DNA of 64,000 bases from Odontocerum albicorne. Its lineage: Eukaryota; Arthropoda; Insecta; Trichoptera; Odontoceridae. Below, piece by piece: positions 4,720-63,060 of this stretch. The DNA lies in contig OX463848.1 in assembly GCA_949825065.1 (NCBI GenBank), positions 38,196,663-38,260,662 on the forward strand, given 5' to 3'. How positions within the stretch are numbered: the first letter of the stretch is position 1; the number at the start of each line of letters is the position of its first letter. A program made the translations under genes and the position numbers. Below the pieces are notes generated by a model that was not told where the DNA came from, did not search any database, and worked only from the letters and a program-made list of their open reading frames with translations.

Positions 4720-5100
4720 CAGGTATACGCCGAGTTCAGTCTCCGCAGTGCACTGTGATTTATTTAATGGGGTAACTTATGCGTTTACCTGACACTGCAA
4801 TTATGTAAGGGAGATATTAAACACCTTTACCTAGGAAGAATGACAGTAATTACGCTTTGTACTTAATATTATGTTGGCGTTAAAACCCATCAAAAGTCTT
4901 ATTACAAAAATGATACGAGTACATTAACATTGTGGAAAGTGATTTATTTGTGGAAAGTGAAACTTGTTTGTTTCTTACTGCCTATTCTATAGAAATAATG
5001 CCTTGTTTATACGTGCAAGTACATGATCGAGTACTGGTGGTCTGTTTGGATGAAAAGTAAATATTCATTGTTACATACATACTCGTACGTGTATATCCAT
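4720..5100. other. No recognisable gene
   Basis: AT-rich spacer. It contains two TACGAGTA-type octamers (4914-4921 and 5080-5087). Confidence 0.5.
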
Positions 5101-5101
5101 A

Positions 5102-5250
5102 ACATCAAGCAATTTACTTGCTGGGGTAGGCTAAGAGGATAAAACGTCAAACTTTCTTATCACAAATATACTTCATCCGCATTCTCCGCATCCATATACG
5201 AGTATATTCTCCTACAGGTTTTTCTGTTTCTCTTCCCTCATTTCAAAATG
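5102..5250 (-). repeat. LINE-M 3' end fragment, minus strand
   Basis: The segment TTGCTGGGGTAGGCTAAGAG is the complement of the LINE-M terminal CCTACCCC block, and the following CATCCGCATTCTCC region lies where other copies encode CMDVEE. It contains an octamer TACGAGTA (5197-5204). Strongly diverged. Confidence 0.45.
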
Positions 5251-5820
5251 TCACTCGTTTGATATGTTATTGCTTATATATTTATTTTCATCAATCGTAC
5301 AATGCACCTTATAACAATAGTTAAAAAATACAAGAAGTTATGTTTCATTTGATACGTAGTAAAATAATACTAAAATTAAAAAAATAAATAATAAATAAAA
5401 ATTACAGTAAAATCAAATAACACAATTATACATAAGCAATCAAGTGTACAAGTCAAATTTATTTAAAAATATGAAAATAGTTATCGATATACTCGTATAT
5501 ACAGTTGATTATAAGATACGGGACTGCCTCGAGTTAGGCTGCCCGCACTTCTCCACACCGAGCGCCACTCATGACATTTTTACGGAAAGAAAAGTATAAT
5601 AGATTCAATATTACGTAAATTATACAATCAGCCTTATTTTATCTCTGCAGACTGTTAAATATATCGACAATCTTAACAAATTGATTTCCTAAAAGATGCA
5701 TTCTATATATTGGGGAATTTTAATGATAGTTATTAAAATTAATTATAATTAGAGGTACTTAATTTATTATGGTCGCATTATAAAATTCTTAAGAAATTTA
5801 CATACAAATAATTACGATAT
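5251..5820. other. No recognisable gene
   Basis: Very AT-rich. One octamer TACTCGTA lies at 5490-5497, and a short GC-richer patch lies near 5525-5575 with no identifiable origin. Confidence 0.5.
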
Positions 5821-5829
5821 TTATTTGAT

Positions 5830-6043
5830 GTGGTAGGTAGAGAGGGCAAAGCGTGAATTTTCCCATAACGACAAAAAAATCGCCTTCTTCACGTCCATAA
5901 ATCTTCTCATAAAATTCCTTCTATTTCTCTTCCTTTTTACGTTTTCGTCTTTTAAAATTTAATTCCCTATGCCCAACCACACACTTCTCGGGCTTCGTCT
6001 ACCACGACTCTCAGTACATTCACTCTCCCTTTTACACGCTATA
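5830..6043 (-). repeat. LINE-M fragment, minus strand
   Basis: The complement carries the GRGRPRK-type region (TTCTCGGGCTTCGTCTACCA) and the CTCTTCC/ACGTCC block found in the other LINE-M copies such as 49915-50160. Decayed, no frame. It is followed directly by MAR-A copy 1 at a TA. Confidence 0.45.
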
Positions 6044-6045
6044 TA

Positions 6046-6501
6046 TAGGGTGTTAACATAAGTTGTGTCCGTTTTTTTTCCAATTTAAAAATGAGCACCA
6101 AAAGTAATTCAAAAGAAAATTTTCTGCTCTACAAGATATTGTGTTTGCTTTTACGTTCCATATATTATTTTATTTGATTACAAGCCTTCAAAATGGAATA
6201 TCGAATAGACGAAAGTGACCATTTTCGACACCTCCTTCTGTTCGCGTTCAATCGAGGGAATAAAGCTGCCAAACTGCTCGCGATATTTGCGAAGTGTACG
6301 GTGAAGATGCTATGAATTAAAGGACAGTTTCAAAGACGGTAATTTCAACCTAAAAGACATGGAGCGTTCCGGACGACCAGTAAACTTCAATGAGGACCGC
6401 TTAAACCATAATATTCATGAAGATCCCCTTCAAGAATAATATGGTTTAAGCAGCCATTTTTAAATTGGAAAAAAACGGACACAATTTATGTAAACACCTA
6501 A
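6046..6501 (+). mobile_element. MAR-A copy 1, short internally deleted mariner
   Basis: Ends are inverted (left AGGGTGTTAACATAAGTTGT, right complement TTAGGTGTTTACATAAATTG) with TA on either side (6044-6045 and 6502-6503). A transposase start is visible at 6193 (MEYRIDESDHFRHLLLFAFNR), then stops and frame breaks; a later GAFRTTSKLQ-type frame corresponds to ERSGRPVNF. At about 456 bp it is a deletion derivative. Confidence 0.85.
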
Positions 6502-6737
6502 TAAATTAGCGTTTATACGTGTGCAGTTAAGTACTTGGCTGAGCCACTTAGTAATAAACTCAACAGGTTTAAATATCAGTCTCATTGTCTTGTAATCGTA
6601 GAATATCTTTTGTTTGTATTTAGTATAATCTGGTGGTTTTATTATATGAGGCAATCTCTTCTAACCAACGAAATATGTGCTAAAAAAGTCTTAAATTAAA
6701 GGAACTGGAACATAAAACAAATTGTATACCAACGTAC

Positions 6738-6939
6738 AGTACCCGAGGGTAAATAATACAAATCGTCTCTGTCATTCATACACGTGTTCCGTCACGATTT
6801 GTCAGTCTTTCTACCTAACAACCCTTTCTAAACACCGAACTGTTAGCGCAAAGAGCTGTTAGATAGAAAGACTGACAGATCGCGACGGAACACGTGTATG
6901 AATGACCGAGACTATATGTATTACTTACCGCCGTGTACT
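6738..6939. mobile_element. FB-E copy 1, hairpin MITE
   Basis: Two arms of about 85 bp are inverted copies of each other: left AGTACCCGAGGGTAAATAAT, right complement AGTACACGGCGGTAAGTAAT, and both share TCATTCATACACGTGTTCCG. The loop is about 35 bp. A relative at 19489-19718 has the same terminal block GGCGGTAAGTAATACA. No ORF. It is probably a non-autonomous DNA transposon; no clear target duplication is visible. Confidence 0.75.
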
Positions 6940-7074
6940 TATAATTCAATCATGCAACGTCCGGATTAGAACACAGTCGAATTATAATCTAAGCCATAAA
7001 AGTCGTCCATTGTTATTCTTGTAAGTATACTAATTGTCGTATATTTTCTTATTATTTCTTTATTCTCTACGTTT

Positions 7075-9870: not shown

Positions 9871-10095
9871 CTTAAACTTAAACTAACACTTAAACTAACA
9901 CGTAGATAAACTAACACTTAAACTAACACGTAGATAAACTAACACTTAAACTAACACGTAGATAAACTAACACTTAAACTAACACGTAGATAAACTAACA
10001 CTTAAACTATCACGTAGATAAACTAACACGTAGATAAACTAACACTTAAACTAACACGTAGATAAACTAACACTTAAACTAACATGTAGATAAAA
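9871..10095. repeat. 28-bp tandem array
   Basis: About seven and a half nearly identical units, each made of two halves: AAACTAACACTT and AAACTAACACGTAGAT. One unit has lost its first half. Homogeneity is high, so the array is young or gene-converted. No spacers of unique sequence are present, so it is not a CRISPR array. Confidence 0.9.
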
Positions 10096-10236
10096 TAAAA
10101 CAGTTGTAATAATTACGAAGTAATTGTTTAAAATTATTTATATTTCTGTGATTTATTTTGCTATCGTCATCACCATCATAATTGGAGTAAGCAGATAGAA
10201 CAGACTGCCACATCATATATCTTTTCGTTCCTACTA

Positions 10237-10786
10237 AAGGGTCTTTCAAATTGAGCGGTTTTTTAATTCTTGGATAAAACACAGATGGCATCGTGAACTT
10301 GCCTGGACCTTGTGACATTTGAGAAGCGTAATGTATGAAATTTATAAAAAGGGAGTCGTATACAATACAACAACGCGTTCAAACTGTTGAATTATTTTAT
10401 CTATTGTAATCTCCGGAAACGGTGATGTTAATTGGCCACCAAGACCATGTGATCTGACAGCGTCGAACTATTTTCTCTGAGGTTACGTGAAAAGGTCTAT
10501 AAGAATGACCCTTAATCAATTCCTGAGCTGAAGGGCGAAATTATTCGCGTTATTGGTGAGGTAGAACCGCAATTATGCTTAAATGTCATCGAAAATTTTG
10601 ACAAAAGAGCAGACATCTGTGCAGCTGCAAAAGGTGGACATTTGGCGGATATTGTTTTTTGTGTTTAAATGTCATGCATTATACTTCAATGAACAATAAA
10701 AAGATTTTAAATCAAAGCAAATAGGGTGTTTTATTCAAGAATTAAACAAAATTGAATTAAAAAACCACTCAATTTGAAAGATCCTT
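10237..10786 (+). mobile_element. MAR-B copy 1, internally deleted mariner-like MITE
   Basis: Ends are inverted (AAGGGTCTTTCAAATTGAG at left, AAGGATCTTTCAAATTGAG as right complement), with TA at 10235-10236; the right TA has mutated to AC. The plus strand carries a transposase start (SYTIQQRVQTVELFY near 10360) joined out of frame to the C-terminus (SIPELKGEIIRVIGE, NVIENFDKRADIC, GGHLADIVFCV). The catalytic middle is gone. Two other copies (29912, 36356) share exactly this architecture, so it spread as a MITE. Confidence 0.85.
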
Positions 10787-13444: not shown

Positions 13445-14405
13445 TTTAAACTGTGTTTTTGTGACTCAAAGTACCAACGTTTCGAGAAAATTAGTGGTGG
13501 TTGATTGTTAGCATCGCTGACTTAAAATAAATTAAAAACCAACATGCCTTGAAGATGAGAGCTTTAACGGTTTAAAAACATGTGGACATAAAAACGATAT
13601 AAACTCTGATAATAACTACAAAAAGCCTACGAACTTAATTTATGGAAAATTATCATATAAAATAAAAAAAAATCGATAACAGCGGAACTTCAACATCCCT
13701 TCAATGTGTTTTTATTTAAAAGGTACCTACATTTTTTAAATCGAGGCAATTTTCTTTCACGTCAATATAAACTATTTTCCTTAAGAACTGATACACTCAA
13801 CCTAGCACTTCTTACAGTATAAGAAAGAGATTTTTTAGTGAGCATTTTCAGTCCAAATATGTGTTATAAAAATCTTACTTGAGACTTTTTTTATTTCTTC
13901 TACGGTGTCAAATCTTCTCCTCTTTCAGCCCCACAAATTTATTTGGGAAGCAAAAATATCGACACCTTGCGAGTATGGATGGTTACGTCTTTATTGCTCC
14001 GATTTATTTTTGTTCAAGAAGCGTTTGTACTACTCGTAAAACTTTCAAGACCCCGGGATTGTTATGCCACTTCATCGTCTTCATCGTCTTCATCGTTAAA
14101 TTTAACGAGTAAATGTCGCACCAATTTAAAACGGGTAATTAATTATAAATTTCCACTCAGTGTTGCAGGATATCGGCCATATCCTCAATAAGCTTGTTAT
14201 ATACAAGTATTATCCATCTTCAACACGGTTGATTAACAGAGTTTATTGATGGATTATTAAATTTAAAAAATCTTGTTATATCAACCGCATAATTTGTAGC
14301 TGAGACACTATTTTTTGTAGGTTTACTTATTTCTTTTAGTAAAGTTAAATAATATCAGTCCAAAACGATGGAAAAGAAATTGATACATGATTATTTTACT
14401 AAACG
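13445..14405. other. No recognisable gene
   Basis: AT-rich. Two overlapping plus-strand ORFs (13879-14191) include a TCG/TCA microsatellite (near 14070-14095) and have no family motif. Confidence 0.45.
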
Positions 14406-15757: not shown

Positions 15758-16230
15758 TTGTCTTCCTGACCGATTTAACTTGCAGTTTATTTTTCGTATC
15801 AATACTGTTTTCCTGTCACTTATTAGTCTACAATATTTTTGGAGTCCTCATTAGATGACTTGTGCCACTAAAGAATACTTAATAATTTTTGTTTTTTTTT
15901 TCACTGTATCTACTGTAGAAATTATATTTATTCTTCAAAACGGCTAGCTCTAAAAACTATGGAGTTATACTTATTTAAGGTTCTACATGCGAATATTGCA
16001 TGGTTGCTTGCGTCAGCTTCTTAAATTGGTTAAATAAAAACCAATTACTCGTATATTACATTCATAACAAAATAATAAGAATGAAAAGGGTTTTATAACA
16101 TATTGTTAAAAGTTATAGTGTTTGTTAAAACAAATTACAATGGTTTTATAACAATTGAGTGCATTCAGTACAGCACAATCTGATGGTTTACGAGTATTAT
16201 GCCTTATTGCTGTTGGTTTATTTTCCCCTA
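15758..16230. other. No recognisable gene
   Basis: AT-rich spacer with two octamers (16046-16053 and 16189-16196) only 143 bp apart. Confidence 0.5.
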
Positions 16231-22214: not shown

Positions 22215-23640
22215 CTTTTGACTTTTTATTTAAAGTTTCTGTTTTATTGTTTAAAATAATTTAAACTGAACAAAATGAAATATATAGGTATCACTTAAAT
22301 TTTTTATGTCAAGTTACCGTTTTACTGCTTAAAATAATGGAATAAAATTAAAATTGAACATAATGAAATATGAATAACTATTTAATTTTTTTATGTAAAA
22401 TTGCTGTTTTATTGTTTAAAATAATGGAATATAATTCAAACTGAATGAAATGAAATACGTATAACACATACAACTTTATTGTCAAGGTGCTGTTTTATTG
22501 CTTAAAATAATGGAATATACTTTAAACTAAACCTAATGAAATATGAATCACACTTATGATGTTTTATGTCAAGTTGCTGTTTTATTGTTTAAAATAATGG
22601 AACATAATTTAAACTGAACGTAATGAAATAAAATTAAAACTGAACCTTATGAAATATGAATCACGATTCAATTGTTTATGTCAAATCGCTGTTTTATTGT
22701 TTAAAATAATGGAATCTAATTGAAACTGAATCAAATGCAATACGTATCACACATACGATTTTTTTGTCAAATTGCTGTTTTATTGTTTAAAATAATAGAA
22801 TATACTTGAAACTATGCCTAATGAAACATGAATCACACTTATGATTTTGATGTCAAGTTAACCGTTTTCTTGCTTAAAATAATGGAACATACTTTAAACT
22901 GAACCTAATGAAATATGAATCACGTTTTTAATTTTTTATGTCAAATTTCTGTTTCATTGTTTAAAATAATGGAATTTATTTGAAACTGAATCAAATGTAA
23001 TACGCAACATATAATAAATACGATTTTTTTTGTCAAGTTGCTTAAAATAATGGAATATACTTTAAACTAAACCTAATGAAATACGAGTATGTATCACACT
23101 TATGATGTTTTATGTCAAGTTGCTGTTTTATTGTTTGAAATAATGGAACATAATTTAAACTGAACGTAATGAAATATGAATCACGTTTTTGTTTTTTTTT
23201 AAGTCAAGTTGCTGTTTTACTGTTAAAATAATGGAATATAATTGAAACTGAATCAAATAAAATACGCAACATATAACACATACGATTTTTTTGTCAAGTT
23301 GCTTACAATAATGGAATATATTGTACTTTAAACTAAACCTAATGAAATATGAATCACACTTATGTTTTATGTCAAGTTGCTGTTTTATTCTTTAAAATAA
23401 AGGAACATAATTTAAACTGAACGTAATGAAATATGAATCACGTTTTTGTTTTTTTTTTATGTCAAGTTGCTGTTTTACTGTTTAAAATAATGAAACATAA
23501 TTTAAACTGAACCTAATGAAACATGAATCACGTTTTTTTTATTTTTTAAGTCAAGTTGCTGTTTTATTGCTTAAAGGTATAGATTATAATTGAAATTGAA
23601 CAAAATGAAAAATAAATCACGCTTTTGATTTCTTATGTAT
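22215..23640. repeat. Satellite array with three-unit higher-order structure
   Basis: About 16 units of roughly 80-110 bp, each with the core GCTGTTTTATTGTTTAAAATAA and TGGAATATA. Units differ in their second half and fall into three types: A (CTGAATCAAAT ... CACATACGATTTTTTTGTCA), B (AACCTAATGAAATATGAATC then CACTTATGATGTTTTATGTC) and C (GAACGTAATGAAATATGAAT then CACGTTTTT). From about 22425 the order is A-B-C repeated four times, then C-like and a decayed unit. In the last two rounds the B unit has lost the TGTTTTATTG part, so the three-unit block itself was duplicated. One B unit carries a 6-bp insertion at 23082-23089. Confidence 0.85.
23082..23089. other. TACGAGTA scar in a satellite unit
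   Basis: Sister units read GAAATATGAATCAC; this unit reads GAAATACGAGTATGTATCAC. Removing CGAGTA restores the unit length exactly (with one substitution). It fits a TA-CGAG-TA excision footprint. Confidence 0.75.
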
Positions 23641-26229: not shown

Positions 26230-26925
26230 TTAGGAAGAAGAAGAAGAATAAATTTTTAATATCCATATTTTTAATACGCTCAAGTACATCGCGCCATTTT
26301 TGTCATCCTTTGTAATTAATTGTATGTATTTCATAGTAAATTGATTTTGAATTTTTTCCGTATTTTTAGGATTCCCTAAAATTTTGTTAATTTTTATTAA
26401 CTGTCAACTTTAAAAGACATCGTTTGGTTATTATAACATATAGCGGTATCGCTTTAGGCGAAATCGTTAGAGAATATGCTGCGATTCGCAATAGCTAACT
26501 AGACCACATCAAAGGTGTAATTCCCCAGATCAATTACTATAATTTACCACTCGAATCACTGTAATTGCTAAATCGAGTCGTTGAATGTTATAAACGTTGA
26601 ATTTAGTTGAAGTCTTCACCTTAGAATGGCCGAGACTTATACAGTCAATTAGAGAAGAAAATAAATTGCTCAGAAGTAAAACATTTTTTTGTCGCCTTTC
26701 ATCTTTTGAAAGAAATTCAGACCACAACGTGGAAAATATTTAATGAGTTGTTATATGGTATAATATACTTGGGAAAAAACTACAGAAATACATTTTTTAA
26801 AGAAATTTAGCTAACAAGGGAAGAATATTAGAAAACTTTACTTGCATGCATTCCAATACAAAACAGGTTTGAAAGACAAATGTGAAATGACTTTCATACT
26901 CGTAGTTTGCTGGTACACAAAAGCT
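26230..26925. other. No recognisable gene
   Basis: AT-rich spacer; one octamer TACTCGTA at 26897-26904 just before the LINE-O fragment. Confidence 0.5.
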
Positions 26926-27560: not shown

Positions 27561-29780
27561 ATATAATTATTGCTTCTATAGTCTGCGGGAGCCACGCTCA
27601 TAGATACATTTAAAAGTTCACATATTCGGAGGAACTTCAATGTTACTGTCATTGAGGAGAAAATAAAACAAATATTGATATAATGGCATGGGTACATGAT
27701 GACAATACTTGAAAGCCATATTTTTAGGCAGCTTATTAACATGAACCTCCTTTAACCATAAAATCGACGAAGACGTCTTAAAAATATATGAATGCCACAA
27801 AGATTAATAACGCTTTAAGTCAATAAACTTAAAAGAAACATTCCAAAAATAAAGGACAACGTCAATTTGAGGACGAGAAGAAGATTTGAGATAAGACTAG
27901 AAAGCAAAAATATTCAAATACCAAAGAGGGGTAGATTTGATAATATCTTGCTAGATTGCAATTCTGGTGTCGATAGTTCGATATCTAGCAAGTTGTTTTC
28001 CATCTTAATTTATTTAAGTATTGTAAATAAAGAGAATACGCGACAGTGGTATGAATTTCTTAATGGTGCTGCATAAGTCGTTTAGTTTGAATAAATGTCT
28101 GTTTGTGCTTCATTTACTTTATTTTCTGTTTCAACTCGCATTTCAATATCTCGTTCCACCTTTCCGTCGTCTGATAATAAATACACTATGATATACTTTC
28201 CACATGGTAAACTTTTTAATTTGTTTTATATACTATATTTTAGTTCACTATGTTTATTTTCATTTTTAATTAATCGTGTTGGATTAAAAGCGCTATGGAT
28301 ATTTTTATTTTTGATGTATTTGTGCCACATATAGTAAAATATATGTTTTCTATTTGTATATACATAAATGGTTTTCCGTTTTGATTTTGTGTTCAAGTTT
28401 TGATGTTTTACCCTTTTGTAGTTTTTTTTTTCTTTTTTTGTTATTTGATATGTTTTGATGTTTGTTTGATTGCTATTTAATTTGATTTTTTTGTGTATAT
28501 TTTCGAATATATGAACAAAAATTTTATCAAAAAATTTCATTTAGTCGGATCTTGATTCTCATAATACAACCCCTATTTACAAATGAGCTCATCCTGTTTT
28601 TCATCGTATTAGTGACTGATTTAATGATTGCAATATTGGATGCCGACATGTATATACCATAAATTTTTCGTATATTTTTTGTATGGGTCAAACCTCACAC
28701 CGCGATCTCGAGTGCGGTTAGATTTTTTCTTTCTGTTAGCCAGTTTTCAAGAGAGCACGCACACTAACAACCCCCCCCACCCCGCAGTCTATGGTGCAAA
28801 ATTTAATATTCACTTCCCACAAAAATCAAACAAGTAAGAAATTCGAAACTTTATTCGGCTTTTTAATGTCTTTTGTTATTCTGAATGCGTTGTTTTTATC
28901 TGTTAATAAAAGAAGAACGAACGAACGAAAAAGAGTTATATTAATGTTGCAAGTAAGAATAACGTGTGATTTAAATAAATAAATAAATATAGGTTTATTG
29001 ATAGCAACCTAGTATGTTCATAATACATTTAAATATACTTCAAGAATACATAAATTATAGAGAATACATTAAAGACAGAAGCTATCAAAAGATCTGGGCT
29101 CATCTAATAACATCCCCCTGACCAAGATATACCCCACCAATATAGAGCGAGCACAGCCACGAGGACAACAGATGTTTTTCAGCCCACACCCACATGTAGA
29201 ATAAGGAGAGAAAATAAATAGATAGCAGAAAAATAAACAAATCCACAAATACCGCCTCAGATCAATTCAAACAAACAAATAAAGGTTCCCTGACAGCAAC
29301 ACAATGTGTACATAGAGTATAAGGGAAACCCCGCTTTCACGTGCCCGGAATTCACGTTTTCCCGCTATTTGTGTTCAATTTTTACAATCCCGTTTTCCCA
29401 ATTCCCATTTCATGGATTAACTTTTCAACTGTCGTGTCAGCATAGCTTTGTTGGAAGTTTTGGCAAAGCCACGAAAGCTTTATGAATTATATTGTAATTT
29501 TTAAAATTTGTTAGTTAGCAAAATGACGATGTATACAATTCATATTCTTATAATTCGCATGTTGCACTTAACTAATTTATATCTGGAGACGATGCAAATG
29601 CAAGTGTTCATTTTTTATCATATCAATCGATGGAAATACGAGTACATTATTATGTTAACATATGTCTGTCTTTCTAGCACATTGAAATATACGTCATCGT
29701 ATTTTACCTTTTGAAACTTGGGAGTGAATCCTGTGCATTAGCATATTAAACATTGTACTAGATATTGATTGGTTATGTAA
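27561..29780. other. No recognisable gene
   Basis: Long AT-rich stretch. T-rich minus/plus chance ORFs occur at 28095-28540. Related short motifs (TTTATTGATAGCAACCTAGT near 28993 and CCTGACAGCAACACAATGTG near 29288) suggest a decayed duplicate. One octamer lies at 29637-29644. No exon or RNA gene seen. Confidence 0.45.
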
Positions 29781-29911: not shown

Positions 29912-30476
29912 AAGGGTCTTTCAAATCTTTCAAATTTAGCGTTTTTTTTTATTCTTGGATAAAATACAGATGGTGTCGTGAATTTGCCTGAGTCTTGTAA
30001 AATTTGAGAAGTGTAAGGTATGATATTTATAAAAATGAAGTCGTATACAATACAACAACGCGTTCAAATTGTTGAATTATCTTATGTATTGTAATCTCCG
30101 GAAACGATGATGTTAATTGGCCACCAAGATCATGTAATCTGACACTGTTGGACTATTTTCTCTGGCGTTATGTGAAAAACCAGGTCTATAAGAATGACCC
30201 CCAATCAATTCCTGAGCTGAAGGACGAAATTATTCGCATTATTGGTGAGTTAGAACCGCAATTATGCCAAAATGTCATCGAAAATGTTGACAAAAGAGTG
30301 GACATCTGTGGAGCTGCAAGAGGTGAACATTTGGCGAATATTGTTTTTTGTGTTTAAATGTTATACACTATACTTCAATGAGCATGATGACGTTTTTGAA
30401 ATCAAAGCAAATTGTGTGTTTTATTCAAGAATTAAAAAAATTTGAATAAAAAAACCGCTCAATTCGAAAGACCCTT
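29912..30476 (+). mobile_element. MAR-B copy 2
   Basis: TA at 29910-29911 and 30477-30478; ends AAGGGTCTTTCAAAT and complement of ATTCGAAAGACCCTT. A plus-strand ORF (30148-30357) encodes the transposase C-terminus: MDYFLWRYVKNQVYKNDPQS, IPELKDEIIRIIGELEPQ, ARGEHLANIVFCV. Upstream, out of frame, lies the N-terminal start SYTIQQRVQIVELSYVL. The deletion point is the same as in copies 1 and 3. LDYFLW holds the last acidic residue of the DDE core; the other two are absent. Confidence 0.9.
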
Positions 30477-31039: not shown

Positions 31040-31545
31040 CTTTTCAATATGTCTAAATCACCAATTCGTATAATTTTAAGGGTGTCATACGAATAAATTG
31101 ATTGAGTCGCCATTTGTCAGTTTTTCTTCGTAGATCGACTCAATGATAAGTAAGCAAATATTTTTAATTGCAGTCAAGTATTCAATGACGATATGGTAAA
31201 TATGAAATGCTTTTTTAAAAAAAAATAAAGAAATCCTGGTAATTAAAATGTTCGTTTAGAATACATTCAAAAACTTACAATACACTTCAACCGGTTTAGA
31301 TCTTTAATGTGATACGATGAGGTAACATGCTACTCGTATGCAACCTCCTTTTCTTCATTAGTAAATAGACAAGTTTTATCCTTATCATACCAATATATAT
31401 TATAATAAACTCCTGAAGTTTATTTCGCCCATGAAATCGAATATACTCGTACGTTGGATTCCATACCAATAGTCATTACATTTCACATAAGATATGGAAG
31501 ATATAAGAAATTAACAATAAAACTGATGTCATCTTGAACATGTCT
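31040..31545. other. No recognisable gene
   Basis: AT-rich spacer with two TACTCGTA octamers (31331-31338 and 31444-31451). Confidence 0.5.
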
Positions 31546-32290: not shown

Positions 32291-32792
32291 AAATTAAGAG
32301 TAAGTAATATATGAAACATCTAGAAGTATCAGAGAGATATGGGAATTCGGAATAACAGATATGTAAGACAAGAGAGTGAGGTCAAAATTTACAAAACATT
32401 TGTGAAAGCAATCATGACGTAACATACAACAAAAACAAAAAGTACTCGTATACTCAGAATAAGCTAAATGAAAACCCTTCGATTCATAGCAAGTAAAACG
32501 CTTAGATATTAAATTGGAACGTTTCGTACCAGGAAAATATATGAAGTGGAAGATATTATGAGATGGGGTAAAAATTTCGAAAGAAATTGTTGAGGCCATA
32601 TGGAAACAATTGATACGACAAGAGTTCCAAAGACGAAAATGTATTGAATACTCGCTGTCAGTGGTCTCCAAAGAAGAGCTCCAAAAATATAGATAAATGG
32701 AAATCACTATTGCAAGAGAATCAATTCTGATGATGGATCGGGCACATACGAGTATGTTACTTTTTTTTTTCCTGCCAGGCATGGAGTATATA
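32291..32792 (+). pseudogene. LINE-P-like fragment, plus strand
   Basis: Broken frames read SEVKIYKTFVKAIMT, KTKSTRILRIS, MKTLRFIASKTLRY, EVEDIMRWGKNFERNC and METIDTTRVPKTK. Their order parallels LINE-P at 25849 (TYGIEARADTVRTKSKLR, RTLRTIAGKTLRD, VQDVVRWGRQRR). A large minus-strand ORF over 32294-33112 is the antisense shadow of this fragment. Two TACGAGTA-type octamers lie inside. Confidence 0.65.
32443..32450. other. TACTCGTA scar in LINE-P-like coding sequence
   Basis: The frame reads KTKS-TR-ILRIS. Deleting the six bases CTCGTA gives KTKS-ILRIS, which aligns with KTKS/RTKS-xLR in the LINE family and in the copy at 25911. So the octamer is again a 6-bp gain at TA. Confidence 0.6.
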
Positions 32793-34074: not shown

Positions 34075-34224
34075 TACAATGAAGCCCTTACACACAAAGT
34101 TTTTAGATGATCTCGTTGAAAATACTTTTTATGTGATTTAAATTATATTTTTTATGAATACAAATATGTTATAGTAATAAAAATTGCGAAAAAAAATATG
34201 GAAATATGAATACATTATAATACT

Positions 34225-34318
34225 CGTATCTTTCTCATTGGTTGGAAGACATTGCCACGTAACAATAAGCCATCCAGGTTGTACTGTACAAACGAAAGTA
34301 TAATAGTACGCAATAAAT
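34225..34318 (+). mobile_element. SINE-J tail fragment
   Basis: TTGGTTGGAAGACATTGCCA, CAATAAGCCATCCAGGTTG and GTACTGTACAAACGAAAGTA. An octamer (34221-34228) lies at its left edge. Confidence 0.65.
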
Positions 34319-35464: not shown

Positions 35465-36035
35465 ACAAAACTAGAAAAAAAAAACAACGATTTATATTTC
35501 CATTACCTTTATACGAGTATATAAAATATGTCACCGTTAAGAAATATATCACAGCGATATTCATTTTCTCAATTTAAAAAAAAATACGAAAGTTTATAAA
35601 TGTAACTGGTAACACTACAAATTTTATTTACAGCTATAAATAAATAAAAAAAAAACATGTTTAGGATTGAGTGCAGTTTCAATGGTCTTCTTATCATTGA
35701 TCGTAGATCATAACTCTTAAAACTATATCTCATGACAGCTGATCACTGTAAAAAAAAGTGGTTGACAATACAAGAAATGTCAGAAAGTCATTATAAATCA
35801 TGTTTTCTCCGCGTTTATACATCTAAGACATATTTTCTTTTATGATATTATTTCAAATACCAATTTTGATAAATATCTGTCGAGTTGTTTATGGAAATAT
35901 GGTGGATATGTAATAGTTTAGTGTATAACCTGAAAAAAATGTGATTTAAGAAATAAATTGTACGAGTATATATTTGATATAAAACGACGTTTCATCTCAA
36001 ATGTTTTTCCGTGTTGTATTTCAAAAATGTCGACA
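35465..36035. other. No recognisable gene
   Basis: AT-rich; two octamers (35512-35519, 35961-35968). Confidence 0.5.
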
Positions 36036-36315
36036 TGTTCATCAGGAAGTTCTTAGAAAAAAAAGCTTTGTTATAGTGTTACTGTAATATGTCAAAAGCG
36101 TTATTTATGATAGATAATGTTTTGTATTAGAGACTCGTATATGTTTATGTGAATAGAAATATCTGAAAAAAATGAGAAATTCTTAGGAAAAAACCTTATC
36201 ACACTGTTTTTATAATATATCAAACATTTGTTTGGATAATGTGTTATATATATGTGAATAGATATGTCAAAAAAAAAAATAGAAATTCTTAGAAAAAAAC
36301 TTACCATACTGTTAC

Positions 36316-36323
36316 TACGAGTA
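36316..36323. other. TACGAGTA scar in a tandem unit
   Basis: The unit at 37114 reads GTTACTATAATATG; this unit reads GTTACTACGAGTATAATATG. The flanks match perfectly and the only difference is the 6-bp gain at TA. This is the cleanest footprint in the window. Confidence 0.9.
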
Positions 36324-36355: not shown

Positions 36356-36916
36356 AAGGGTCTTTCAAATTGAGCGTTTTTTTTATTCTTAGATAAAACA
36401 CAGATGGCGTTGCGAACTTGCCTGGGTCTTGTGACATTTGAGAAGTGTATTGTATGACATTTATAAAAATGGAGTCGTATACAATATACGAGTAACAACG
36501 CGTTCAAATTGTTGAATTATTTTATGTATTGTAATCTCAGGAAACGGTGATGTTAATTGGCCACCAAGATCATGTAATCTGATACCGTTGGACTATTTTC
36601 TCTGACGTTACGTAAAAAACCAGGTCTATAAGAATGACCCCCAATCAATTCCTGAACTGAAGGACGAAATTATTCGCGTTATTGGTGAGTTAGAACCGCA
36701 ATTATGCCAAAATCTCATTGAAAATTTTGACAAAGGAGTGGACATCTGTAGAGCTGCAAGAAGGGGACATTTGGTGGATATGGTTTTTTGTGTTTAAATG
36801 TCATACATTATACTTCAATAACCAATAAAAAGTTTTTTGAATCAAAGAAAATTGTGTGTTTTATTCAAGAGTTAAAAAAATAGAATTAAAGAAACCGCAC
36901 AATTTGAAAGACCCTT
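36356..36916 (+). mobile_element. MAR-B copy 3
   Basis: TA at 36354-36355 and 36917-36918; ends AAGGGTCTTTCAAATTGAGC and complement of CACAATTTGAAAGACCCTT. Contains the same N-terminal start (SYTIY..., broken by the octamer at 36487) and C-terminus (SIPELKDEIIRVIGELEPQL, NLIENFDKGVDIC). Same internal deletion as copies 1 and 2. Confidence 0.9.
36487..36494. other. TACGAGTA scar inside MAR-B copy 3
   Basis: Copies 1 and 2 read TATACAATACAACAACGCG; copy 3 reads TATACAATATACGAGTAACA. The net gain is 6 bp plus one C-to-T change. The event postdates the spread of this MITE. Confidence 0.75.
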
Positions 36917-37194
36917 TATTAGATGTGTATGTGAATAGAAATATCAGAACAAAATGAGAAATTCTTAGAAAAAATACCTCATCATAATGTTACTATAACA
37001 TAATATGTCAAAAACGTGTTTGGATAATATATTAGATACATGTGGATAATATATTAGATATATCAGAAAAAAAACGAAATTCTAAGAAAATAAAACCTTA
37101 TCATATCGTTACTATAATATGTAAAAAAACATTATTTGGATAATATATTAGATATTTGTGTATAAAAATATCAGAAAACATGAGAACTGGAAAG

Positions 37195-38042
37195 CATGGT
37201 GATGTGAAAGGAAAAGTAAATACGATTTATGGGTGAACAGTGCAAGATTTGAGTAAGTTATTGAATTATTGGGTAGTATTTTCTCAGATGATGGAAGAGT
37301 TAGGAAATATATTAAACGGGGTGTAGCTATGTCAGTTATACACTAAATTATATATGCTCAAACATATCAAAGTATCAAAACTTGCTAATATGATATCCTA
37401 TAACAATATTTTGGTATAAACTTTGATGTATGAAAGTGAAACGTACATACGAGTAAATGTAGAAAAATACTGAAACGACGTAAAAAATGCGTGAACTGAG
37501 AAGAACAAATGGGGTGATAATGCATGACCGAATACAGATTGAAGTGATAAGGAATGAATGTGAACTTTAGGCTGATGCGTTGAGCAAAATGAAAAATAAT
37601 ATTTTGAGATAGTAAAACTGAGAGGAACTCAATAAATTATGTAGAAATGCGTGTAATGAGATGAATATATAGACTGGCAATGTTTGACAGAAAACGAAAT
37701 GTTGTAATAAGGGATAAATAGAAATTTAAGACTGATGCGCTAAGTAAGATGGGAAGACCACCCTGAGATGGTTTGGGCACGCGGAACGAATGAACGAAGA
37801 AGGACTAGTAAAAAAATTACAGTGCAAGTCTAAGTGGAAGAGGTGGTAGAGGAAAACCAAAGAAAATGTGGTTGGGTCAAGTGTGTGATATTTTGAATAA
37901 GGAAATGGAAAATTTTAGATACATCGTTAGAGTTGCCTGAAGGAGTGTATGGATAAGATGTGAAGAATGTGTGTTGGGGAAGGAAAATATAGATATATGT
38001 TGTCTATGCCTACTCCGACAGGGACATGCCGTGATTTCATAT
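37195..38042 (+). pseudogene. LINE-M copies, two overlapping 3' portions
   Basis: Plus strand: a block matching LGSIFSDDGRVRKYIKRGVA near 37265-37330, ACTTTGATGTATGAAAGTGA, a first GECELADALSKMKN-like block near 37550 and a second (RLMR*VRWEDHPEMVWAR) near 37730, then KKLQCKSKWKRW, ENVVGSS and the CCTACTCCGACAGGGACATG end. Numerous stops. The doubled middle suggests either two nested copies or a duplication. Confidence 0.6.
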
Positions 38043-41823: not shown

Positions 41824-42273
41824 TTAACATAAGTTGTGTCTGGTTTTTTTCAAATTTAATTCAACGTTCGACAATTGATTTTTGTTGTTTTCACTCAAAA
41901 CATGTGGAATCCAAGCGCCGAACTTCTGGTCTTTTCCCATTGATTTAAGATGGCGATATACGAGTACAGTCATGTAACTACAATTAATCTGCTCAGCCAA
42001 TTCTACGGTGGCTTGAAAGGAATCTTCATGAATAATATAGTTTAAGCGATCCTCATTGAAGTCCACTGGTCGTCCGGAACGCTCCATGACTTTCAGGTCG
42101 AAATTAGCGTCTTTAACACGCAAAAACCATCGACGAGCTGTCCTTTCATTCACAGAATCTTCACCGTACACTTCGCAAAGATCGCGAGCGGCTTTGGCAG
42201 CTTTATTCCTTCGATTGAACGCGAACAGAAGGAGGTGTCGAAAATTCTCACTTTCGTCTACTTGACATTCCAT
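41824..42273 (-). pseudogene. MAR-A transposase N-terminal half, open frame
   Basis: An intact 149-codon frame: MECQVDESENFRHLLLFAFN, RRNKAAKAARDLCEVYGEDS, VNERTARRWFLRV, MERSGRPVDFNEDRLNYII, LAEQINCSYMTVLVYRHLKS and DQKFGAWIPHVLSENNKNQL. It contains two helix-turn-helix regions, as expected for terminal-repeat binding. The catalytic domain (about 200 residues with three Asp) is deleted; the last about 14 residues are read through the terminal repeat. TV-LV-YRHL has two added residues caused by the TACGAGTA scar. If expressed it could bind ends but not cut. Confidence 0.9.
41959..41966. other. TACGAGTA scar in MAR-A copy 3 coding frame
   Basis: MAR-A copy 2 reads ATGACTGTATACCGC (MTVYR). Copy 3 (minus strand) reads ATGACTGTACTCGTATATCG (MTVLVY). 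The 6-bp gain keeps the frame and adds Leu-Val. Confidence 0.9.
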
Positions 42274-45039: not shown

Positions 45040-45330
45040 GGAAAAAAATATACACTACCCTCCTAATTCAACTGTTCTCAAAACTGAGAAGACATTTCTC
45101 TTCAGTCTTGGTGATATGTCAAATTTTTAAGTCAACTTTCATCCAACCATACATGTACGAGTATGTCAATTTTTATCCATCCATTTTTCTTTCCATCAGT
45201 CTTTTTTATCACATGTTCTACGCACATTTGTTTTGTTAGTCTTTCTTAATTAATTCGTTATACATGCCCAAACCATCTAAGAGTGCTCTTCTTCATCTTA
45301 CTCAAAACGTCAGCCTCAAATTTGACTACT
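45040..45330 (-). repeat. LINE-M fragment, minus strand
   Basis: Complement includes ATACATGCCCAAACCATCTA (LRWFGHV region) and TCTTCATCTTACTCAAAACG, as in 35380-35450 and 20010-20050. Octamer at 45156-45163. Confidence 0.5.
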
Positions 45331-45917: not shown

Positions 45918-46200
45918 ATGACAATTTAAATAGCACCATTATGAGAGCAAACTCTTCCCATGAGCGCTCTAACTCGGGATTCGAACCCCCTATTATTAAT
46001 ATAATAAAAAAATTATAAAAACTATGTACATAAGTTGCGTGTAAGATGGTGGCTGCGCCTATTACTATATATACGAAACTTCCCCGCATTTTCATATGTT
46101 CAGAAAAAAATATTTAGTATAAAACTGCAGATAACTTACAAAGGGAAGACGAACTACAAAGAAACGTTTGTAAATCTGTCATAGTAACGCATTCGGTTTT
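45918..46200 (+). repeat. Rep-L copy 3, proximal part
   Basis: TTTAAATAGCACCATTATGA, GAGCGCTCTAACTCGGGATT, AAGATGGTGGCTGCG, GGGAAGACGAACTACAAAG. Continues into the tandem array at 46195, and the distal part of Rep-L resumes at 46684-46760. Confidence 0.75.
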
Positions 46201-46676
46201 AGGTGACGTGTAGTATATGTGTGTAGTGTTCAAATATAAACATAATATTTAGGTGACGTGTAGAATATGTGTGTAGTGTTCATATATAATCATAATCTTT
46301 AGGTAACGTGTAGTGTTCATATATAATCATAATATTTAGGGGACGTATAGTGTATGTGTGTAGTGTTCACATATAATCATAATCTTTAGGTGATGTGTAG
46401 TATATGTGTGTAGTGTTCATATATAATCATAATCTTTAGGTGACGTGTAGTGTATGTGCGTAGTGTTCATATATATTCATAATCTTAAGATGACGTGTAG
46501 TATATGTGTGTAGTGTTCATATATAATCATAATCTTAAGGTGACGTGTAGTATATGTGTGTAGTGTTCATATATAATCATAATCTTCAGGTGACGTGTAG
46601 TGTGCATATTTAATCAAAATTTTAGGTGACGTGTAGTGTATCATACGCGTGTAGTGTTCATATATAATCATAGTCT
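46195..46676. repeat. Tandem array of about 55-bp units grown inside Rep-L
   Basis: Eight to nine units of TTAGGTGACGTGTAGTATAT then GTGTGTAGTGTTCATATATA and ATCATAATC. Other Rep-L copies (11240-11280, 56100-56130) have this sequence only once. Two units are shortened. Array expansion took place within this one copy. Confidence 0.9.
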
Positions 46677-46769
46677 TTGATAGATTCCAAGAAGGGTTGA
46701 TTTCAAGTGCTTCCTAAAGCTGCAAACGCTTCTTATTTATCTAATATTTGAGGCAGACAAATATTGAAC

Positions 46770-50929: not shown

Positions 50930-51745
50930 ACACTTTAAGGGGATGAAGGCTGTAGGCTGTGCTAGAAGTTCCTATTTATTATTATTTTACTCGTATATAA
51001 TTATCCTTACCTTAGTATGTAATGGTGTTTAACCTGTATTTGTAAAATTTATATAAAATAAATAAATAAAATAAATAAATAAAATTAATAAAAATATTAA
51101 AATCAACTAAACACAAAGTTCTTCAATTTAATTATAACCTCCAATTAAGCTATGTATTAATTTATGAATAATTTTTGATGTTCTTATCGAACCCGCAACT
51201 TTTCAGATGCATCCTATTACTAAGCAACAGTGGTAACCAAAGTGATCATATTTGACAGCTAGTATCACAAAAATCAAAGTTAATATGGTCCACATTTTTT
51301 TCATTGGACAACAGAAGTAATATTTCGTTCCCGAAATGTATGACATAACGATGCTAGTTTAGAAAAAAAAAGCATTACGCAAACCCATGGCAACACTTCA
51401 TAGCTGACCGTCATGGTTAACGAGAGTTCAAGTCCACAGGTAACAGCTCCTGTTATAATCAATCATCATCATCATCAACATCGATTGTGACGCGAGCTCT
51501 ACGCTGCTTAACTATTGGGCAACTTTGGTCTTCATACCGAGACGCGTTGCATAGTAATTGATACGAGTTTTGCAGAAGGAAATTAACGTTAAAAATACAA
51601 ACACTAACGCGTTTATTTACTTATTACTTAGCGTTTCCGTTTGTCGTTTATTACTAATTCTTAACACTCTTTATCCCGATCTCTTGTTTTAAAGTGATAA
51701 AGTAGATTTTCGCTATTTGGCTAGTATTTTCTAAGACGATGAAAT
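50930..51745. other. No recognisable gene
   Basis: AT-rich, with an AAATAAATAAAT run near 51055-51090 and an octamer at 50988-50995. Confidence 0.5.
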
Positions 51746-54800: not shown

Positions 54801-55480
54801 TAAATGATCGGATTATATAGAAGGCCACTGTAGTTGACTTGAGATATGTTACAATATAGTCCGACATTATGGTTGTATTGAACAAAAGTATCTATTCGTT
54901 CGCCAAGTACCTGCGTGCGGTCCTATCAGCCAACGGAATCGCTCTTGTCTGAAGTACACATACGAGTATGTAGCCCTCCGGATATATTTTCATCTTAAAC
55001 TAATGTTGGCATTGCGTTTAACGTCACTCGTAAATAGTTTTAAACGGATACCAAAGGTTGTCTTTGGATGACAAACCTTTACGTATTATGCAAAGAATTG
55101 CCAAAGTTGCGTATGAATGATTCTGGTATAAATTCGTATTAATTAATTTACTTAAAAACAAATTAAAAAAGTTTTTTTAACCTTTAAGACCTAAATGAAT
55201 TCTAAGGTTTCAAAAAATTCTTGCTTGTATGCGTATTATTTATGATACATTAAAATTCAACATTATGTCGTATTAGTTTAGGTAGATGGCGCCCAAAACG
55301 TTTTAAGTCGATAAAACAGTATTCTACACTTCGTTAGTTATCATTGGAAACAGAAGTATACCAGAACATACCAGTATACCAAAAAGTTGCTTACACATTG
55401 CATATGAACTCTGTGTCCATTATAATGGACGACAGGTCTGAAGAGGTGAATACACTAAAAATATTTATAATAATAATAAA
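54801..55480. other. No recognisable gene
   Basis: AT-rich; octamer at 54961-54968. Confidence 0.5.
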
Positions 55481-56964: not shown

Positions 56965-58695
56965 ATAATGACCTATAAATATTTTATATAACAAAAAGCT
57001 TGTTCTATTTTTATCGAATCTAAACTACACGTCATTGAAATCAATTCGAAGGAATCAAGGTCGAATATCTTCTACAGTGTTTTTGTCTCGAGTTTAATGC
57101 CATTTGTTGTTTTGAAATGTCATCGTTTCAATACGTTCGCTTTTAAAATCGTCACGCCATGTCATCATGTTTGCTTAACTATTTGTGGGAGTGATTTTTA
57201 TGATCCTTTACGTGTTCTCGACCGTAATGGAAACATTATTACCTGTCATCCTACACTCAATGGTTACCGTAACGAAAGCGCCAAAATGAATATCAATCGT
57301 ATAAAAAACGAAACTTGATGGAATGATAAAAATTTCGAAGATATCACGTATCAACATAATTAACATATTCGAGGATATTTTTATCTCAAATATCTTTAAC
57401 ATTGTCTATCTACTGTGGGATGAAGGCACCCTCAGGTGCCTTTTAAGTTTTTGAGTATTTTCATGGCCAACAGCTATCATGTTGATACCATTGGATGATA
57501 GTGTTTGTCCACCGTCAATCCCTTGCCCATAGAATATGACAAGAATAAAACCACTTTAATACCTTTACTATAAACAAAGTAATGTTTGTTATTGAGGAAA
57601 CCCAAATGTTCCATATTCTGACTCTTCTAGTTATGACAATGACATCTATCTCCATGACACGTTGCTCAACATTGAGTTTGGTTCTGCCTTGGGTAGCTTT
57701 ACATTTCGCATTCATCTTTGCATATATATTCAAAGCATTACTAAAAATTGAAAAGAGAGGTTTTGAAATATAGATACCATAAATAATTAGAGGTTCGCAT
57801 TTTTAAATGACAACTACTCGATTACTTTAACTTAATTAATTCATTGTTTTCATATTTTCCTATCTTATCAGCGATGCAGTCGGTTTGTCGGGTACATTTT
57901 AGTATTTATCTAACTGTTTCGGTTCCTTCAGATCAAGTCTTATTATCCTTCACAAAACCGTTCCACCTAGTTTATCTTAAGTTTACGACGACATAATTGT
58001 TCTCCCCGGTTTTGTAAGTTCTATGAGGAATTTCGTTTTCGGTATACTTAAAATATGTCCCAGTTATCCCTACTTTACCTTTATCAGAGTGGGGTTCCAT
58101 CTTGAAGATTCCATGTTTTCCATATAATTTTATCTACCAGTGATATCAATTATTAATCATTTTTTTTTCATTTGAACTCTACATGAAGTACCAATAACAT
58201 TTTACATTATAAATAAAAATTAAATGCAAAATTTTACTCAATCAAATAGTGACTTTTTAAAAAGATTACTTGGAAATCAGTGACCTGTTTCACTCTATTA
58301 AATAATTTTCGACAAACCTGTTTTCATCCTAATTAAGCAATTATGAACTGCCAAAGCAGCATGATAAAAAAAACAGATGTCGTTTAGTATTAAGTATCAC
58401 GATAAAAATATCATTGAATCCAAGTGTTTGTATAATTTGAATATAAAATGATTTAAATAACCTAATACTCGTACATACAAACTATCCCACTGTTTTGCTA
58501 CTGGACTGGACGGAGACAAAAAGTATTTTTTTACAATAGGTTATCCACCCAAACTAGGATGATTTGTGCAACCAAATTAAATACATTATGCAAGTATATG
58601 GTATGATTCAATATAATAAAACCAATTTCAAAAAAATACAACTCTAGATAATTCAAAGTTTCAAATAATTAAGCTCCAAAAATTTAACAATAGAC
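56965..58695. other. No recognisable gene
   Basis: AT-rich to moderate. A 73-codon plus ORF (57097-57318) and a 72-codon minus ORF (57515-57733) show no known motif. Octamer at 58466-58473. Confidence 0.4.
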
Positions 58696-60380: not shown

Positions 60381-60384
60381 CTGG

Positions 60385-60548: not shown

Positions 60549-60549
60549 T

Positions 60550-61000: not shown

Positions 61001-61004
61001 AGTT

Positions 61005-61405
61005 GTATAAGGTGTCATCGTCGTCATTGCTGGACCTCGTGGTCGAGGATTCTCTCGCCATTCCAACGTCAATTCAATTGGAAAGCGAAGCTGTGCCGTG
61101 AAGTTTGTTTCATCGTTTTCCCCTTTCTCAGTGAGTAAGCCGTTGCACATCAGCAAACTCACCAGTCACACCACTGTGCTAGATCCGATGACACACCTGA
61201 AGTGAGACGATGAAAGCACACCGGCCTTTTTTTTTTTTCCTTTTTTTTTAAATAATTTTTATGACTGAAGTCATAGGTATCTTTATTCTCCCTAGACGGA
61301 AAAAATGTCTGTATCATTCGAGGGGAGTAGCACAATGCGGGGTTCGAACCGAAGACCTTACACACGGAAGTCCAGTGCGGTACTGCGCGGCCATGCACCG
61401 CACAT
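61005..61405 (-). mobile_element. SINE-S copy 3, full length, minus strand
   Basis: On the complement the head reads GCATGGCCGCGCAGTACCGC then ACTGGACTTCCGTGTGTAAG and B box GGTTCGAACCC. The body runs through AAAGATACCTATGACTTCAG and a pyrimidine tract to the block near 61020. Best copy for defining the family; about 400 bp. Confidence 0.85.
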
Positions 61406-61408
61406 ATA

Positions 61409-61492
61409 TAAGGTGTATGGATCTAGAAAAGGCGAAATATGTGTATCGCAATAGAAAAGTTGTCTTCCCCGACAAGAAAACGGCATAATTGT
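61409..61492 (+). repeat. LINE-M terminal fragment
   Basis: Encodes RCMDLEKAKYVYRNRK, the LINE-M CMDVEEAKYVCRDRK motif. About 28 codons. Confidence 0.6.
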
Positions 61493-61499
61493 AATTGTG

Positions 61500-61848
61500 A
61501 TCTGTTTTTTTTTTATTTGTTTTCTAATGCTCTACATATTCCGTGAATTTTTTGGCAACTTGCTAGGTTGTTTGAACTCCAGGCTTCGAGCCACTTTGTT
61601 AGTATATTGACTGTACTGCAAGTTATTTTTCTTCTCCTGTGACGTCGGACCTTAAGTCCGTTGTTGCTACTATTCTTTTCACGCTTAGGTGTGTTACCAC
61701 CTAGAGGAGGAATATCTTTGGGTATTATGTTGTCGTCCTTATGTGACGTCGCCCTCATAAAACAAAAATGTTGTGACCTTCTATGGCATTAAACACCCTA
61801 TTTGTATATTTATCAATTGTGTTACTGTGTCTCTCTTTCATTGTAATC
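61500..61848 (-). other. Unidentified minus-strand ORF
   Basis: An 81-codon frame (61513-61758) reads DDNIIPKDIPPLGGNTPKRE, KNSSNNGLKVRRHRRRKITC and STVNILTKWLEAWSSNNLAS. It has a basic patch and a helix-like end. Balanced composition; it may be part of a retroelement ORF or a host exon. No family recognised. Confidence 0.25.
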
Positions 61849-61849
61849 A

Positions 61850-61992
61850 GTATAACCTGGTGGGCGTATTGTCAATGTGACAAACTCCACCAACCAACCA
61901 AAAATATATTAAAGAGAACTTAACTGAATATCAGACTATATTTAAAAAAAAACTAAGACTGGCGTCTTACCAACAAGACCATGGAGGTTGTT
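61850..61992 (-). mobile_element. SINE-J copy, minus strand
   Basis: Complement of AACCTGGTGGGCGTATTGTC (tail hairpin), body near 61930, head remnant CTTACCAACAAGACCATGGA. Confidence 0.7.
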
Positions 61993-62031
61993 AATAAAAT
62001 GGTTAAATAAATAAATACTTATACTCTACAA

Positions 62032-62455
62032 CAGGAGTCGACAAACTACGGCCCGCGGGGCTAATCCAGTCCACCGCCTCTTTTTGTACGACCCGCGAGC
62101 TCAGAATGAATTTTATTATTTGAAATTTATAAGTAATATAGAACGGTTGACCACCGAGTTGACGATTTCTCACCTATGTGGTCTCTGCTGTGACACCATA
62201 CAGTTATAATTCGGTAGGGTTTTCAATGCCATGTATATCGCTGTTCTGTGACATTTTGCTCTCGTTTATTACTCGTGATTATTATATGGTATGAATATAT
62301 AAATCTATATTGTTCTAAAATAATATAGCCCGTGCATATCTATCACGATACTGTTAAAACAAGAAAAAAGCGGAAAATTGAAAACCACTTTTGGCTCACA
62401 AATCCTAAAATATTTATTATTTAGCGCTTTACAAAAAAATGTTGGGCGACGACTG
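62032..62455. mobile_element. Second hAT-type MITE with 8-bp duplication
   Basis: Left end CAGGAGTCGACAAACTACGG then CCCGCGGG; right complement CAGTCGTCGCCCAACA. Flanked by CTCTACAA (62024-62031) and CTCTATAA (62456-62463), an 8-bp duplication with one change. Ends resemble the CAGGGGTCGGCAAACTACGG class of hAT MITEs. 424 bp, no ORF. Confidence 0.9.
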
Positions 62456-62469
62456 CTCTATAATTTAAA

Positions 62470-63060
62470 AAATGTGTGATTTTAATTTCCCATCAAGAAT
62501 TTAAATGAATATAAAAAAAAGGTAATATATTATACGTAACTGAGTAAGTAATGTTATATATACAATGTATTTTGACAGTAATAATATAATAAGTAAATTG
62601 ACAAGCACACTTGGAATTTGTCATGTACATGCAACTATTTGTGTCTTGCGTGACATGCATAATATACTCGTAAGCAATAAAGTAGGGACTTCGGTCGCAG
62701 GGCCTTTTCAAGATTCTGCTCAACTTGACGTTAAATATATAAAAATGTATTTGGGAAGTGTTCCGTGGGAGATGCGATATCCTATCGGATAGGTATCAGA
62801 GGTACTAGAGTCTTGGTTTTCTTGATCAAACAACCATTCGGAGTTGCTGTTGTGTTATTCTTTGTCTTTTGTGTTAGGCCCGCACACGTAGTATGTCTTC
62901 ACCAATCAGGTCACAACGGTCAATATAAGGTTATATAGATCGTGCACGCCTCAAGAAAATACATACAGTGGAATGTTGTTCAAGTTGTGGTCTATAGTCT
63001 AGATCTCTCCATATTCCCAGAAATATCTTGGAGTTGACTCTACTAGGACCACTTGTGCAT
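62470..63060. other. No recognisable gene
   Basis: AT-rich spacer; octamer at 62665-62672. Confidence 0.5.

Follow-up and report, generated by a model that had tools for sequence, protein, structure and literature searches.

Excess octamers in the genome of Odontocerum albicorne as probable excision scars of CGAG-ended, TA-inserting transposons

Results

Octamers of the window

The DNA analysed here is a stretch of 64,000 nucleotides from the trichopteran Odontocerum albicorne (assembly GCA_949825065.1, contig OX463848.1, positions 38,196,663 to 38,260,662 of the forward strand; hereafter 'the window'). It harbours 26 exact copies of the octamer TA-CGAG-TA (TACGAGTA, or TACTCGTA when read on the opposite strand), which very probably are scars left behind by the excision of some Tc1/mariner-type element. 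A first-pass annotation, made from the sequence alone, had listed 25 octamers as scars of a Minos-type transposon; all 25 positions hold the exact word, but a 26th octamer at 14031 had been overlooked. Among seven positions named there as one-base variants, three hold such a variant and four are shifted or wrong, and the 'variant' placed at 14103 may be site 14031 with swapped digits. Contrary to the statement that the window retains no element, positions 2048-2975 are occupied by a TA-flanked remnant both ends of which carry TACGAGGG. It contains an open reading frame (ORF) of 126 residues without Pfam match, and we take it to be mariner-like from its ends and from sequence motifs. The features are as follows.

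2048..2975, minus strand: TA-flanked mariner-like remnant, TACGAGGG at both ends; CGAG-ended, of the kind that would leave such scars
4914..4921, plus strand: probable TACGAGTA scar
5080..5087, minus strand: probable TACGAGTA scar
5197..5204, plus strand: probable TACGAGTA scar
5490..5497, minus strand: probable TACGAGTA scar
14031..14038, minus strand: TACGAGTA octamer overlooked before; flanks TTT/GTA not target-like, may be chance
16046..16053, minus strand: probable TACGAGTA scar
16189..16196, plus strand: probable TACGAGTA scar
23082..23089, plus strand: probable TACGAGTA scar in one 87/173-bp satellite unit; of six unit copies printed, five have plain TA and one CA
26897..26904, minus strand: probable TACGAGTA scar
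29637..29644, plus strand: probable TACGAGTA scar
31331..31338, minus strand: probable TACGAGTA scar
31444..31451, minus strand: probable TACGAGTA scar
32443..32450, minus strand: probable TACGAGTA scar
32747..32754, plus strand: probable TACGAGTA scar
34221..34228, minus strand: probable TACGAGTA scar
35512..35519, plus strand: probable TACGAGTA scar
35961..35968, plus strand: probable TACGAGTA scar
36316..36323, plus strand: probable TACGAGTA scar within a local repeat, the 6 bp being absent from its other copies
36487..36494, plus strand: probable TACGAGTA scar within a repeat of 560 bp, both other copies of which (10295-10449, 29980-30134) lack the 6 bp and have CA at the site
37448..37455, plus strand: probable TACGAGTA scar
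41959..41966, plus strand: probable TACGAGTA scar in a mariner fragment (HTH_48); all three listed paralogs have plain TA
45156..45163, plus strand: probable TACGAGTA scar
50988..50995, minus strand: probable TACGAGTA scar
54961..54968, plus strand: probable TACGAGTA scar
58466..58473, minus strand: probable TACGAGTA scar
62665..62672, minus strand: probable TACGAGTA scar

Enrichment from window to genome

The excess of the octamer is real and extends from the window to the genome. Within the window, the 1,680 words of equal composition occur on average 1.89 times (s.d. 1.84), and TACGAGTA is the only one to reach 26. Throughout the 1.287-Gb assembly of chromosome-size contigs, the word is found 190,753 times in forward and 190,749 times in reverse orientation, that is, 381,502 times or once per 3.4 kb, compared with 15,081 + 15,070 = 30,151 occurrences of the reversed word, which served as control. 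This amounts to an approximately 12-fold enrichment over the chance level, and to an excess of ~350,000 words, a figure which still includes octamers located in tandem arrays. The near equality of the strand counts is uninformative, since every TACGAGTA on one strand is a TACTCGTA on the other.

Likewise, a 204-kb sample made up of the window together with 14 10-kb loci picked by place contains 70 octamers, when 5.0 are expected from a second-order Markov model and words of equal composition average 6.2. TACGAGTA is the most frequent of the 1,680 such words in the sample; in the 14 loci without the window, which hold 44 octamers (0 to 9 per locus), five other words of equal composition are more frequent. 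Ranked by excess in the 204 kb, the octamer is fourth among all octamers and first among all TA-NNNN-TA words. One-base variants exhibit no clear excess, either in the 204 kb (128 seen, 136 expected) or genome-wide (841,879 seen, about 859,000 expected).

Evidence for excision footprints

Targets of Tc1/mariner elements are palindromic around TA. The flanks of the octamers (n = 140) likewise define a palindromic TA target, AYR-TA-YRT, with A at 0.61 in position -3, T at 0.49 and C at 0.22 in position -2, and A at 0.58 and G at 0.23 in position -1, while around any TA the background for A and T is 0.33-0.37 each; bases more than three positions away are near background, so that the octamer does not belong to any longer conserved word. 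Moreover, 69 of the 70 octamer contexts are unique in the 204 kb.

Repeat copies provide a comparison of empty and scarred sites. When the flanks of 81 octamers were joined and searched against roughly 287 kb, 16 matched across the junction, and for seven of the 81, representing six independent sites (L021 739; L021 1303 and 1485; window 23082, 36316, 36487 and 41959), copies were found that lack exactly the 6 bp. At five of these six sites, one or more of the copies carry a plain TA, and 36487 has CA only. Copies of the 36316 site carry plain TA (37055-37147), TG (36046-36106) or five other bases (36928-37031), and the 6 bp at 41959 lie inside an ORF on the minus strand (41824-42273), the frame of which is unbroken. 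At two further sites among the 16 (L014 6025 and L016 3455) the word or a one-base variant is present in every copy, and the remaining seven matches are too weak. Five net gains of 6 bp at a TA had been claimed for the window: those at 23082, 36316 and 41959 are borne out, that at 36487 is likewise a gain of 6 bp but its paralogs have CA, and a fifth was not found. Paralogs thus present both the empty and the scar state, and what is inserted at the TA site consists of element-end bases plus one TA, as is characteristic of a Tc1/mariner footprint.

The excess is restricted to the form with four bases between the TAs. In the 204 kb, neither the 3-base form TACGATA (29 seen, 30.4 expected) nor the 5-base form TACGAGGTA (0 seen, 0.9 expected) is in excess, and genome-wide the latter (2,178 + 2,344) falls below its reversed control (3,548 + 3,670). 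The mixed repair products TACGCGTA (4 seen, 3.1 expected) and TACTAGTA (2 seen, 4.7 expected) are not in excess in the 204 kb either. Enrichment, palindromic target, copies without the 6 bp, and contexts without a shared repeat in the sample jointly support the earlier proposal that the octamers are scars of a TA-targeting element with CGAG ends.

A 50-bp TACGAG palindrome at L018 5851 was considered as a candidate element and rejected as an isolated hairpin (seven genome matches with at most three mismatches, two of which are its own arms). Apart from the octamers, the window contains satellite-like arrays at 22256-23624 (87/173-bp units), 46173-46678 (50-bp units) and 9879-10098 (28-bp units).

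Resident CGAGG-ended mariners

Elements that begin with CGAG are abundant in this genome, and those found are irritans-type mariners. Exact ends of the main family (TACGAGGSNYATCCAGAAA) occur 7,094 + 7,188 times, and exact ends of further families (TACGAGG...TAAG) 1,838 + 1,770 times, with no occurrence of either control, which yields 17,890 exact ends in total. It had been stated before that scars outnumber elements, and 381,502 octamers compared with 17,890 exact ends, or up to ~20 excess words per exact resident end, agree with that statement. Most facing ends of the first family are separated by ~890-1,000 bp and a few by 1.17-1.30 kb; for many ends of the second set the distance is close to 1.25-1.3 kb. 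The longest copy read spans 1,304 bp. All copies read have broken frames. Pieces of two of them match Transposase_1 (PF01359), and 34 residues separate the last two aspartates (DD34D), as counted by eye in the translated frames. A DD34D mariner transposase, a length of ~1.3 kb, a TA target and a CGAG end are what one expects of an irritans-type parent, and the resident elements show all four.

The target of these mariners, derived from 99 of the initial 100 ends listed (all within the leading 4.5 Mb of C1), has A at 0.64 in position -3, T at 0.60 in position -2 and A at 0.62 in position -1. Four copies differ pairwise by 2.3-3.5% substitutions in aligned bases, corresponding to ~1.4% for each copy. 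For the scars, scoring of flanks suggests that ~11 of the 128 one-mismatch sites are scar-like, and thus that scar decay is roughly 2%, with a margin of more than 1%. Raw one-mismatch counts bound the age of the scars only loosely, as the expectation under the Markov model varies from word to word by 17%, and a reading of the scars as 'young' from these counts was dropped for that reason.

At C43:6.57-6.66 Mb (L041, L043-L046), a unit of roughly 28 kb is present four times, every copy containing a CACT-ended Tc1 element, a nested CGAGG mariner and what looks like a gt-ag intron of about 84 bp. The nested mariner is kept in all four duplicates, so that these show no split into filled and scarred states; a DNA search with the flanks was uninformative.

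Discussion

Mariners as likely parents of the scars

We lean towards the view that the octamers are excision scars of CGAG-ended, TA-inserting transposons the parents of which were CGAGG irritans-type mariners, because both share the same first four bases, a similar target and a similar age. More tentatively, and with somewhat less confidence than we would grant to an even chance, we suggest that the cleavage site of these mariners lies four bases within the element and that a recent wave of excisions wrote ~350,000 frame-keeping 6-bp scars into the 1.29-Gb genome.

The following mechanism can be envisaged. The element sits between two TAs, as is seen for the resident mariners, and the transposase would cleave one strand at the border of the element, with its cut in the second strand falling four bases inside. 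Such a cut would leave CGAG 3' overhangs on both flanks, which may pair at the outer C-G and the inner G-C with two mismatches in between, and repair toward one strand would then produce TACGAGTA or TACTCGTA, that is, the same word on either strand. The site would end up 6 bp longer, with the reading frame preserved, and the uniform 4-base form may be due in part to the ability of CGAG overhangs to pair. Neutral excisions in the germline would drift to fixation, so that scars pile up as a cumulative record while their parents stay fewer.

A mutation rate of ~3e-9 per generation is known from a butterfly, and neutral excisions become fixed at their rate of origin. If this rate and a mean age of 1.5-2% apply here, 350,000 scars call for ~0.05-0.07 excisions fixed in each generation. 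A few thousand elements could supply as many, so that the number of scars, though surprising, is not impossible.

Several observations weigh against mariner parentage. First, published mariners cut two to three, usually three, bases inside the end (PMC2642840, PMC4027188), and no such footprint is apparent here: TACGATA stays at its expected level and the excess lies in the 4-base form. Second, the targets do not match fully. C in position -2 amounts to 0.22 in scars and to 0.09 in mariner targets, chi-square comparisons of scar and mariner targets yield p = 0.03, 0.06 and 0.18 for positions -3, -2 and -1, and position -2 is poorly described by a mixture of mariner target and 10% background (p = 4e-5, with the error of the mariner estimate ignored). 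Third, one further CGAGG mariner family seems to be older, with matches that share 91-93% identity with the L046 copy, and resident ends are an order of magnitude fewer than scars. Fourth, none of the loci whose repeat copies were compared combines a filled copy with a scarred one. Finally, a low-copy parent could have escaped detection.

A possible Minos-like parent

The main rival to the mariners is a CGAG-ended, Minos-like element (DD34E, Tc1-type) that makes a 4-base cut and has by now become rare, has diverged or is missing from the assembly; we regard it as a possible but rather doubtful source of the scars. Minos of Drosophila hydei, a Tc1-type DD34E element, reportedly has ends that begin with CGAG and leaves the 4-base footprint TACGAGTA/TACTCGTA, precisely the form found in excess here. 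In addition, the scar target is richer in C at position -2 than the target of the main mariner family, and low-copy Tc1 families do exist in this genome, for example a CACT-ended one with 29 exact ends genome-wide.

The searches for such an element, however, point elsewhere, and the attribution to Minos made in the first-pass annotation finds no support in them. The terminal 20-mer of Minos (CGAGCCCCAACCACTATT...) has, at up to three mismatches, 26 matches in the genome compared with 25 for its reversed control. Seventeen of the 26 begin with TACGAG; five of these seventeen are exact copies of the 3' end of a SINE/LINE-like (short/long interspersed nuclear element) repeat and others resemble it; a partner end was sought at four of the 26, and none was found. 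With the Minos transposase as query (118 of 31,498 candidates scored, a minority of the matches read), the best match has 33% identity over 244 residues. Two segments with 42-43% identity over ~140 residues (L041 and L044, both of them copies on C43) belong to elements with CACT ends, and a further segment at C45:20212953 has 40%. For HTH_Tnp_Tc3_2, 150 of 1,568 candidates were scored, and eight of these loci together with six picked by place gave 14 Tc1-type loci, eleven of which have readable ends: these begin with CACT or with variants of CAGTCTG and in no case with CGAG. A scan of 284 kb for TA-CGAG pairs (at least 13 of 20 end bases matching, within 4 kb) detected three pairs and no CGAG-ended non-mariner among them, the only pair that begins with CGAG being a mariner in L019; the window's own mariner pair (2048-2975) fell below the threshold of 13/20. 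No CGAG-ended DD34E element, as sought in accordance with the earlier proposal, was found in these searches.

The family TACGAGGCCCAACAACGATT (2,444 + 2,308 genome matches with at most three mismatches) was tried as a Minos-type end and rejected, as it represents a SINE/LINE-like 3' end and is conserved on one side only at six loci. The corresponding SINE/LINE-like repeat, read at L035-L040, ends in TCGACTACGAGGCCCAACAACGATT and has the same 2,444 + 2,308 matches at that threshold.

Chance, repeats and somatic removal

A chance or compositional excess, or membership of an amplified repeat, is a very improbable explanation overall and is refuted for the sampled 204 kb. Some octamers on C1 are regularly spaced (45, 50 and 470 bp), which suggests tandem arrays, and two of the 70 (L014 6025 and L016 3455) lie in a mariner family, the third sampled copy of which has TACGAGTG, so that the word looks inherited there. 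Set against this are octamer counts far above the Markov and equal-composition controls, the palindromic flanks, the repeat copies without the 6 bp, and the uniqueness of all but one of the 70 contexts, which does not suit the 'one amplified repeat' that the first-pass annotation had named as the alternative. The spaced octamers on C1 (24114-24699, 71937-72787 and 3146924-3148334) are possibly scars that were amplified along with a satellite.

Somatic cells might also produce the scars afresh, through a programmed loss of mariner-like elements which the germline keeps. This would agree with scars far outnumbering resident ends but is hardly credible, as thousands of CGAG-ended mariners are still in the assembly, and as the words in the C1 arrays and at L021 1303/1485, if scars, were copied with their surroundings and hence need germline inheritance.

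Other transposons encountered

Two further elements were met in the sampled loci. At L046:3099-5710 (C43:6602299-6604910) resides a piggyBac-type element with a 4-bp target duplication (TTAA) and an intact ORF of 575 residues (DDE_Tnp_1_7), of which at least ~20 further near-identical copies occur on many chromosomes among the matches listed. It is probably active now, since its ORF is intact and its near-identical copies are spread over many chromosomes. At L048 (C32:13925350-13926900), a Tc1-type transposase ORF contains an in-frame coding tandem repeat of about a dozen RLQWAKQHQSWTNK units.

Significance and comparison with known systems

Cut-and-paste activity is normally gauged from the copies that stay and not from exits. 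With a footprint word in twelve-fold excess, exits become countable, their target becomes measurable, and selection on frame-keeping scars can be addressed; if the words are scars, past jumps are recorded in them with unusual completeness. Under neutrality, one could estimate the germline excision rate per genome by dividing the number of scars by the elapsed generations, and the octamers, if the interpretation is true, would represent a genome-wide ledger of germline excisions from which flux, target choice and repair outcome could be read directly. If the parents are mariners, a 4-base cut would be added to a family known for cuts of two to three bases. What is new is the scale of ~350,000 excess words: a comparable genome-wide scar load is not described in the titles and abstracts of the literature searched, which covers papers containing TACGAGTA in part.

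Among known systems, Minos of Drosophila hydei reportedly shares both the CGAG ends and the 4-base footprint with the scars described here, whereas the searches run on this genome detected neither a Minos-like end nor a transposase close to that of Minos. The main mariner family is nearly identical with Macrosiphinimar, an irritans DD34D lineage of aphids (Apismar1.1, Mpmar1.1; PMC5490172). The ends are CGAGGCGTGTCCAGAAAGTAAGTGTACT there and CGAGGC(A/G)TATCCAGAAAGTAAGTGTACT here, the full length is about 1.33 kb compared with 1,304 bp for our longest copy, and the deleted forms of 923-1165 bp compare with paired ends that are mostly ~890-1,000 bp apart. The word 'footprint' is absent from the text of that paper, whereas here ~350,000 excess words accompany copies with broken frames.

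Excision by the mariners Mos1 and Hsmar1 and by Sleeping Beauty (PMC2642840, PMC4027188, PMC3878927) likewise places element-terminal bases between two TAs. In these systems the overhangs comprise two to three bases and the gain is 4-5 bp, with C(A/T)GTA as the footprint given for Sleeping Beauty (PMC3878927), in contrast to the four bases and 6 bp seen here. A genome-wide view of excision products, comparable in kind to ours, exists for two rice species (PMC4423477). There, excisions are mostly accompanied by deletions or filler DNA, with 8 of 94 being perfect, whereas in Odontocerum albicorne one fixed 6-bp product dominates.

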